Assembly (NCBI GenBank): GCA_012518215.1
Contig: JAAYSV010000008.1
Span: forward strand, 62,001-126,000
DNA length: 64,000 bases
Reading direction: 5' to 3'
Source: Bacillota bacterium
GTDB taxonomy: Bacteria; Bacillota; Dethiobacteria; DTU022; PWGO01
Below the pieces are notes generated by a model. The model was not told the origin of the DNA. It saw only the letters and a program-made list of their open reading frames with translations, and made no database searches. The stretch's first letter is position 1; every line of letters starts with the position of its first letter. Made by a program: the position numbers and the translations under genes. Positions 47,884-50,775 of this stretch are shown piece after piece.

Positions 47884-48831
47884 TTATTCGTCGCCCTGCC
47901 GGGCAGGTAAAGAATCGGACCAATCTTCCATTTCCAGTGAAGATAGCTGCGCTTCGATAAAAGAGCGAAAACGCATCTTGAAGACCTGGACCTGTTTATG
48001 CAAATCTTCATGTTCGGCCAATATACGGCTGGCCTGATAACGGGAATCCTCGATAATTCGTTGCGCCTCCCTCTCCGCCTCCTTGCGGATCAGTTCCGAT
48101 TCCCTCTTGGCGTTCTGCTTGACATCATCCGCCGCTTCCTGCGCCACCAGAATGGCATTATGAACTGTTTGTTCCAGCTTCTCGTAATTTTTTATTTTGT
48201 CGGATAGCTGCACGATTTCATCCTGCAACTGGCTGTTTTCCTGCAGCAATACTTCATATTCGTCGTTTATCCGTTGCGCCTCCATTTCTGTTCTCTGTTT
48301 GATTTCTTCCGCTTCCCGCCTGTTTTTCTCTGCACCAAGCCGGATCGATTCTGCCTCCTGCCTTGCCTCTGTCAGGATCCTTTCTGCAGCTTCCTGTGAC
48401 CGCGACACGGCAATCTGGATCATCTCCTCGACTTTGTCGAACCCCTCGCTCTCCCTGGTAAGGTTGTTGACCTGCGTGCGCAATTCCTCGTTTTTGCGTT
48501 GCAATGCCGCATTTTCCTGGTTGAGGCGTTCGGACTTTCTTTCTCCCTCTTCGCGGATCGAGCGGATTTCTTCCCTGGAGCTCAATTTGTATTTTTCTGC
48601 GTTTTTCCTGGCTTCAGCCATATCTTTTTTGGCGTTCTCTTCCGCCCGCTTGCAGCGTTCGCATTCCTCGCTCAATTTATTGGCCTTCTCGCGAAGAGCA
48701 TTGTTTTCTTTCAGAAGGCCGCCATATTCCAGGGCTATGGTTTCCAGGAACTCATCAACTTCATCCACGCTGTACCCTCTGAATGTTCTTTCGAATTCCC
48801 GGTTGTGGATATCGTTCACATTTAGAACCAT
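47884..48831 (-). CDS. divIVA: DivIVA-family protein with a long coiled coil
   Basis: About 315 residues, roughly twice the Bacillus DivIVA. The N-terminal membrane-binding domain VNDIHNREFERTFRGYSVDEVDEFLE is clear (residues 4-30). Nearly all of the rest is heptad-rich coiled coil rich in Glu, Arg and Lys up to about 280, broken by repeats of the form EAxxIxxEAExEAQRI. DivIVA marks negatively curved membrane at poles and septa. ATG 48831 is chosen; the longer frame to 48906 overlaps ylmH and is not family-like. Confidence 0.9.
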   Translation of the reverse strand: MVLNVNDIHNREFERTFRGYSVDEVDEFLETIALEYGGLLKENNALREKANKLSEECERCKRAEENAKKDMAEARKNAEKYKLSSREEIRSIREEGERKSERLNQENAALQRKNEELRTQVNNLTRESEGFDKVEEMIQIAVSRSQEAAERILTEARQEAESIRLGAEKNRREAEEIKQRTEMEAQRINDEYEVLLQENSQLQDEIVQLSDKIKNYEKLEQTVHNAILVAQEAADDVKQNAKRESELIRKEAEREAQRIIEDSRYQASRILAEHEDLHKQVQVFKMRFRSFIEAQLSSLEMEDWSDSLPARQGDE

Positions 48832-48902
48832 TTCATACCCCGTCCTTTCCCCTTTCCTGAATTGATTAGAAAGTTCGACATGCCGGAATTCTAATCCTTC
48901 CA

Positions 48903-49697
48903 TCATTTATAAAATTTCTTGATAATAATATAACTTCTCCCTTTCCGGCTTTTCCCCGGTAAAGATTCGATGATAAACGTCCCTTTCGATGTAGCAATCA
49001 CATCCTTCTCTTTCAATCGGCAGGAAGGACTCGTTGCAGCTTTCCGGTTGACCTGAACCAGATTCTCTTTGATGATGCTTGCCGCCCGCGATCTGGAGAT
49101 CCTCAGGGCCAGACTGATCACCGCATCCAGCCTTGCTGAAGCTACGGTGCCCTTTATCATCTTGAAATCGGTACGGTCATCGGTGTGTGCAGGAAGGGAT
49201 CGGGAGATTTTCTCCACCCGGGCTTCTGCCGGATCGATCCTGTTCAGTTGATCCCTCAGCATCGATGAAATATTGTCAGCAACAAACACTCTGATTCCCC
49301 GTTTTTCCCCATCCCGTATCAAGTCACCGATCATATCCTCTTCCGCCCCTGCATCATAAAGATATTGCAGGAGTTCGTACTCGAATTCGGTATCCGGAAA
49401 GGAAGCCCCATTCAGGAAAATCAGATCAACCGGGGGCAACCCGGCATCCTTTTCACCGGCCACCCATGCCTTTATACGTACCCTCCGAGCTTCGGCATGG
49501 CCGCCATATGCGCTGTAACGTATGTCCGGATATTTCCCGAAAACTTCCTCCGTTATCTGCCTCCGGTAAGGAGACAGGAAGCCGGAAACCCACTCTTTCT
49601 TGCCCTCGTGAAGCTGCCCGATTTCTTCCATCAGGTACTTGATCCATCTCCGGTCACTTTCCTCGCTGTAGCGCAGAAAAAGTTGATCAGGTGACAA
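48903..49697 (-). CDS. ylmH: YlmH, S4-domain RNA-binding protein
   Basis: 264 residues: N-terminal domain then an S4 RNA-binding domain near 190-250 (ARLDAVISLALRISRSRAASIIKENLVQVNRKA). In Bacillus YlmH has been linked to ribosome rescue and cell division clusters. Start is TTG with AAGGAG nine bases before. Between yggT and divIVA. Confidence 0.93.
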   Translation of the reverse strand: MSPDQLFLRYSEESDRRWIKYLMEEIGQLHEGKKEWVSGFLSPYRRQITEEVFGKYPDIRYSAYGGHAEARRVRIKAWVAGEKDAGLPPVDLIFLNGASFPDTEFEYELLQYLYDAGAEEDMIGDLIRDGEKRGIRVFVADNISSMLRDQLNRIDPAEARVEKISRSLPAHTDDRTDFKMIKGTVASARLDAVISLALRISRSRAASIIKENLVQVNRKAATSPSCRLKEKDVIATSKGTFIIESLPGKSRKGRSYIIIKKFYK

Positions 49698-49791: not shown

Positions 49792-50082
49792 CTATATGCG
49801 AACCCAGGTTTCAATGATATAGCGCAGCAAATGAAGTAACAGGAATGCTATTACCGGAGAGAAGTCCAGTTGAATTCCACCGCCTGACCGCATGGAAGGG
49901 ATCAATCCCCTGAGGGGTTTCAATAGCGGCTCGGTGATTTGCCACAAAAACCGGTACAAATTTCCGATGAACGCGTTATCTCCCGGATCCTGGCCAGTCA
50001 TCATAAAGGAAAGGATTATCCGCCCCAGAATAATGTAAGCATACGTATTGACCAGCAGAACAAGAATGTTTCTAACCGGAAT
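49792..50082 (-). CDS. yggT: YggT/YlmG membrane protein with ATT start
   Basis: 96 residues. Two hydrophobic helices flank the conserved loop LYRFLWQITEPLLKPLRGLIPS; the C-terminal helix is DFSPVIAFLLLHLLRYIIE. With only ATG, GTG or TTG allowed the frame would begin at ATG 50004 and lose the first helix. The reading continues upstream to the yggS stop (TGA) with good family sequence (NILVLLVNTYAYIILGRIILSF), and GGAGGAGG lies eight bases before ATT 50082. ATT initiation is thus the best reading; a sequence error removing a normal start is the alternative. Confidence 0.8.
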   Translation of the reverse strand: MPVRNILVLLVNTYAYIILGRIILSFMMTGQDPGDNAFIGNLYRFLWQITEPLLKPLRGLIPSMRSGGGIQLDFSPVIAFLLLHLLRYIIETWVRI

Positions 50083-50106
50083 CGCAAAAACCTCCTCCAG
50101 GTATGT

Positions 50107-50775
50107 TCAACGGGCCCCGAACAGGGCCGTGCCGACCCGCACCATGTTGGCTCCTTCCTCGACGGCGATATGATAATCATTGGTCATTCCCATGGAAAGA
50201 TACTCCAACTCAACCCCCGGAATTTTGATCCTTTCTTTCAGCTCCCGCACCTGCCGGAAGATCGGCCGGGCTTCCTCGGCATTATCGAAATAGGGAGCCA
50301 TGGTCATCAGGCCCCTGATCTTTATTCTTCCTCCCCTGATCTCCATGATGAAATCTTCGACTTCCCCGGGATGAAAACCGTACTTGCTCTCCTCACCGGA
50401 AGCGTTGACCTGGATCAATACCGGTACATCCACATCCATTTGCATGGCTCTCTTTTCCATGGCCCGGGCCAGGCGCAAGCTGTCAAGGGAATGTATCAGG
50501 GAAAACAGATTGATTACCGATTTCACCTTGTTGGTCTGAAGGTGGCCAAGAAAATGCCACCTGATTTCACCGGGAAGCTGTTTTATTTTTGGCTCGGCCT
50601 CCTGAAGGCGATTTTCCCCGCAACTGGTGATACCCAGTTCCAGGGCTTCTGCTATCCTTTCCACCGCTACATTTTTGGTCACAGCGACAATTTTCACTCC
50701 ATCCGGATCGTAACCACCTTTCAAGGCTGACGACCTGATTCTGGATCTTACCTCTTCCAACCTTCTGTTCAACAT
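50107..50775 (-). CDS. yggS: YggS/YlmE PLP-homeostasis protein
   Basis: 222 residues, PLP-binding TIM barrel of the PLPBP family. VKIVAVTKNVAVERI near the start holds the PLP lysine; HFLGHLQTNKVK and LSMGMTNDYHIAVEEGANMVRVGTALFG are diagnostic. It buffers PLP rather than catalysing a known reaction. Upstream of yggT, from which the usual sepF is missing. Confidence 0.95.
   Translation of the reverse strand: MLNRRLEEVRSRIRSSALKGGYDPDGVKIVAVTKNVAVERIAEALELGITSCGENRLQEAEPKIKQLPGEIRWHFLGHLQTNKVKSVINLFSLIHSLDSLRLARAMEKRAMQMDVDVPVLIQVNASGEESKYGFHPGEVEDFIMEIRGGRIKIRGLMTMAPYFDNAEEARPIFRQVRELKERIKIPGVELEYLSMGMTNDYHIAVEEGANMVRVGTALFGAR

Follow-up and report, generated by a model that had tools for sequence, protein, structure and literature searches.

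The ylmG locus

The window, the 64,000-nucleotide stretch of DNA analysed here, lies within one contig (C8) of a draft genome of the class Dethiobacteria (G000; 61 contigs, 97% complete). Pfam matches of the neighbouring genes established the gene order ylmE–ylmG–ylmH–divIVA–ileS on the minus strand. Upstream, yggS/ylmE (50107..50775) has a normal ATG start; downstream, ylmH (48903..49697), which encodes an S4 domain, starts with TTG and is followed by divIVA (47884..48906; PF05103, E = 1.2e-51). Both yggS/ylmE and ylmH served as control genes. Between them lies ylmG (49792..50082), the product of which is a YGGT protein (PF02325, 67.5 bits against a cut-off of 27, E = 1.4e-18). A first-pass annotation, made from the sequence of this stretch, named the gene yggT. 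The family was correctly recognized, but the gene sits between ylmE and ylmH/divIVA, in an order that is the same in relatives. It thus belongs to the division cluster and is not a yggT of the E. coli type, and ylmG is the better name. In Firmicutes, sepF usually adjoins ylmG. It is missing from the gap between yggS and ylmG (50083–50106) and was not found elsewhere in this 97% complete genome.

The ylmG frame opens directly after the yggS TGA and extends from stop to stop over 104 codons (50106..49792). Along the minus strand, the order is CCCGT, the yggS TGA (50109–50107), ACATACCT, the Shine–Dalgarno sequence GGAGGAGG (50098–50091), TTTTTGCG, ATT (50082–50080) and CCG GTT AGA. Direct reading of the frame from the yggS/ylmE stop to the ATG at 50004 revealed no ATG, GTG or TTG, as the first-pass annotation had stated. 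The sole nearby TTG (50087) is out of the ylmG frame, and its own frame closes at 50016. The Shine–Dalgarno sequence, likewise noted earlier, was confirmed at a spacing of 8 nt upstream of ATT and contains AGGAGGT, a 7-nt match to the anti-Shine–Dalgarno complement. With no canonical start in frame, the properly spaced ATT (50080..50082), which aligns with the start position of relatives in the class, is the putative start codon. Read from here, ylmG comprises 96 codons and a TAG stop, and the yggS stop lies 24 nt before ATT.

The first canonical codon in frame, ATG 50004 (50002..50004), lacks a Shine–Dalgarno sequence and is the likely choice of gene finders. It encodes frame residue 35, within the PF02325 match (residues 17–97), so a start at this position would cost the first transmembrane helix and ~18 of 70 domain positions, about a quarter. 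Two further claims of the first-pass annotation thus hold: a normal YggT first helix is encoded upstream of this ATG, and automatic gene finders would shorten the gene. RNA structure around the ylmG start was unremarkable (z = 0.46 and −0.68).

Start codons across the class Dethiobacteria

We gathered ylmG from genomes of the class, using the conserved arginine of the RIILSF motif as the anchor for aligning the start regions. Family f6 has two YGGT copies; after removal of those found to be away from the division cluster, 82 genomes with a syntenic ylmG remained. By script, an AUU or AUC codon behind a Shine–Dalgarno sequence was assigned in 51 of these, from 31 genera and seven of the eight families, while 27 were canonical and 4 were not assigned. 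Reading by eye added G076 (AAGGAGCTGGTGACC-ATT) and G077 (AAGGAGCTGATTGTT-ATT), which represent two further genera. With these two readings the total, G000 among them, is 53 of 82 genomes, from ~33 genera and seven of the eight families; as the genomes are related, such class counts are not independent. The first-pass annotation had proposed a true ATT start, comparable to that of infC, and had suggested looking for ATT at the same place in relatives. The outcome is strongly positive and supports that proposal. Normal starts at the same codon, which it had named as evidence to the contrary, occur only in some relatives, mainly in genus g16 (ATG in ten, GTG in one) and in scattered cases, placed among AUU/AUC relatives.

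Among the 51 genomes, ATT is used in 40, ATC in 11 and ATA in none, as against 288:181:125 for the isoleucine codons in the gene bodies. The Shine–Dalgarno sequence has a mean match of 6.3 nt in the class. Its spacing to AUH is 8–9 nt in 48 of 51 genomes, although the rule for choosing candidates itself favoured a spacing near 8. No ATG, GTG or TTG is present from 30 to 16 codons before the conserved arginine in 18 of the 51 (14 genera), and one of the genomes without a canonical codon, G003, has an in-frame stop immediately upstream of ATT. Two relatives (G037 and G033; stretches L031 and L050) have no canonical codon within the first 45 codons. Many relatives of families f3 and f5 carry an in-frame GTG within the Shine–Dalgarno sequence, too close to serve as a start, yet a canonical codon. 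The AUU/AUC start is also seen in a single-contig genome (G093; 3,558,951 bases).

In family f6, off-context copies with apparent ATG, GTG or CTG starts were first read as ylmG, but synteny identified them as another YGGT copy; in f6 genomes with two YGGT genes, the syntenic copies mostly have ATT. A separate observation concerns genus g38 (G077–G080; L066, L067, L069 and L071): each of the four genomes carries a second YGGT copy, located away from the division cluster, with an apparent CTG start (AAGGAGTTGGTTAGC-CTG). In sister genera, ATG or GTG takes this place. Protein searches of IMG/VR and GTDB contigs returned nothing closer.

Because isoleucine is abundant in the first helix, three tests were applied to distinguish a start codon from a plain isoleucine. 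When the in-frame codon 7–9 nt behind the best Shine–Dalgarno sequence was taken irrespective of its identity, it was AUU, AUC or AUA in 53 of 81 genomes, canonical in 22 and another codon in 6. The flanking codons were AUU, AUC or AUA in 15 of 81 (before) and 2 of 81 (after). Within family f3, the column occupied by ATG or GTG in all 11 genomes of genus g16 encodes isoleucine in 21 of the 27 others, and four of the six remaining genomes carry AUU/AUC one codon earlier. Nearby hydrophobic columns in this family are a mixture of isoleucine, leucine, valine and phenylalanine. The third test was the comparison, given above, of codon usage at the start column with that in the gene bodies.

A tree built from YlmG, YlmE and YlmH, with the start region excluded, requires 10 changes between the AUU/AUC and canonical states. 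An earlier set that included paralogues gave 11 changes, compared with a shuffled mean of 27. None of the large branches lacks AUU/AUC, and most canonical cases fall inside AUU/AUC groups, which points to an origin early in the class and later returns. It is thus likely that the AUU/AUC start arose early and later reverted to ATG, GTG or TTG in some lineages, an ancestry that is tentative given the uneven branch support and a tree weakly supported in places.

Neighbouring genes, other classes and whole genomes

At the same class loci, a canonical codon is present near the expected start in 50 of 50 yggS genes and 64 of 64 ylmH genes. Outside the class, the comparison covered 70 genomes drawn from many families of the phylum; ylmG adjoins ylmE, ylmH or divIVA in 63 of them. 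These syntenic homologues differ from those of the class, as all 63 start with ATG, GTG or TTG; two had been flagged by the script owing to a misplaced anchor and were canonical on reading. In the class genomes, infC keeps an isoleucine codon at its start, which is ATT in G000 (L175).

A scan for genes without a canonical start gave similar counts in G000, G093 and the control genome G188, and genome-wide relaxation of start codons was rejected on these grounds. We considered pheS as a second conserved case and rejected it, given that its start is canonical in 30 of 30 relatives that were read, with G000 as the sole exception. In that genome (contig C54, L175:13966-15018, minus strand), the pheS frame has no ATG, GTG or TTG before codon 57, whereas Phe_tRNA-synt_N begins at frame residue 32; the start seems to be a CTG preceded by CAGGAGG, or else an ATA in the customary position. 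Contig C8 of G000 also carries a lipoprotein-like frame (ISNRIIFAVAITLLAIVLALGGC; L168:11617-12252, plus strand) without a canonical codon for 76 codons and without a Pfam match, in which GGAGGAGGGG lies six bases before a possible ATA start. An rsgA-like gene of G093 (L234:6164-7048, minus strand) has an apparent CTG start behind AAAGGAGGG, and riboflavin synthase of G188 (IFTGIIEEVG; L259:4680-5336, plus strand) has an apparent ATT start behind AAAAGGAGTGA. The G188 gene suggests that non-canonical starts are under-annotated more widely, and they may occur in ~1% of genes generally. As others seem to be present (pheS in G000, riboflavin synthase in G188), a given non-canonical start need not be regulatory.

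Discussion

The comparisons make it very probable that ylmG is translated from the conserved AUU at 50082 behind a strong Shine–Dalgarno sequence; weak and presumably IF3-sensitive initiation would keep YlmG low. The initiator fMet-tRNA would mispair with AUU at the third position, while the strong Shine–Dalgarno sequence 8 nt upstream would hold the message on the 30S subunit. Initiation would thus be weak and would rise or fall with IF3 activity. This behaviour is expected because IF3 disfavours AUU. Starts at AUU, AUC and AUA, all disfavoured by IF3, gave ~10% of the AUG yield in reporter fusions of staphylococcal cvfC1, ccpN and citZ (PMC13009471). The weak start would cap the amount of YlmG, a dosage-sensitive division and nucleoid membrane protein, with IF3 sensitivity as a consequence; in Synechococcus and chloroplasts, overexpressed YlmG perturbs both cell division and the distribution of nucleoids (PMC2923531). 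The conserved ATT start thus probably represents a genuine brake on the amount of YlmG that has been maintained for a long time, albeit not an indispensable one, since some lineages use ATG, GTG or TTG. That IF3 sets YlmG synthesis across the whole class via the AUU/AUC start is a more tentative proposal and, on balance, an unlikely one.

An error of sequencing or assembly that hides an ATG, GTG or TTG at or near 50082 could be suspected in a draft of 61 contigs, but 53 genomes of the class, from ~33 genera and including the single-contig G093, have AUU/AUC at this position. Being shared by relatives, the codon already refutes this explanation for the class, and for G000 we consider it extremely improbable. 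If ribosomes instead read through the yggS TGA or re-initiated, the result would be a YggS–YlmG fusion or a coupled product, and ATT would not be a start. The yggS stop of G000 is indeed in the ylmG frame and only 24 nt away; by contrast, relatives of families f6 and f8 have a few hundred bases between ylmE and ylmG, and in several relatives a stop in the same frame lies no more than two codons from AUU/AUC. Coupling could aid initiation, but a start codon would still be needed, and we regard this route as very improbable. Also very improbable is a downstream start at ATG 50004 or its equivalent, which would produce a short YlmG without the first helix. Although this ATG is the first canonical codon, it is inside the Pfam domain and has no Shine–Dalgarno sequence, homologues retain the first helix, and the first 45 codons of two relatives include no canonical one. 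The spacing of 8–9 nt in 48 of 51 genomes also argues against it, even if the choosing rule favoured ~8.

The serious alternative accepts AUU as the true start but attributes it to neutral drift from ATG in a gene of low need, without IF3-linked regulation. ATT and ATC interchange, the tree holds about ten changes between canonical and AUU/AUC states, and these genomes contain other apparent non-canonical starts, all of which would fit drift. Yet AUU/AUC persists across almost the entire class, in contrast to the canonical starts retained by yggS and ylmH, ATA is never used at the start, and the Shine–Dalgarno sequence is strong (mean match 6.3 nt). We give drift an appreciable probability, though one short of even.

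Among the closest parallels to ylmG is infC, which encodes IF3 and starts with AUU, AUC or AUA. Both genes place AUU behind a strong Shine–Dalgarno sequence, and in both it is widely conserved. infC is autoregulated by its own product, whereas YlmG has, to our knowledge, no role in translation, so any effect of IF3 on ylmG would be one-way. Another non-infC gene, E. coli pcnB, is described as limited by its AUU start (Binns and Masters 2002, as cited in PMC13009471), but both gene and phylum differ from the case described here. Staphylococcus cvfC1 (AUU) and ccpN (AUA) resemble ylmG in their conserved AUU/AUA start and extended Shine–Dalgarno sequence (PMC13009471); their starts are conserved among staphylococci and were mapped experimentally, while that of ylmG is class-wide and predicted from sequence comparison. 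In Streptomyces, sigR starts at a conserved GTC preceded by the strong ribosome-binding site AGGAGGTG and was found by experiment to be repressed by IF3 (PMC5472188). It differs from ylmG in codon (GTC/GTT versus ATT/ATC) and in reach (genus-level versus class-wide), and for ylmG, repression by IF3 is predicted from the codon. The ylmG/sepG genes of Firmicutes, actinobacteria and cyanobacteria share the protein family and the division-cluster neighbourhood (PMC4852450).

Few bacterial genes besides infC are known to have an AUU or AUC start, and the examples that we found in the literature are conserved at the level of species or genus. A link of ylmG or yggT to a non-canonical start was not found in the open-access literature. 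Non-canonical starts are already known as a kind; as far as could be seen there, ylmG and the class-wide reach are new. In practice, annotation of many genomes in the class will misplace the ylmG start or truncate the gene. A class-wide AUU/AUC start outside infC lets one ask whether weak starts are selected for dosage or for IF3 control, and ylmG is apt for this question, as its overexpression is known to disturb division. If IF3 does set YlmG synthesis, a protein of the division cluster would be coupled to the state of the translation machinery.
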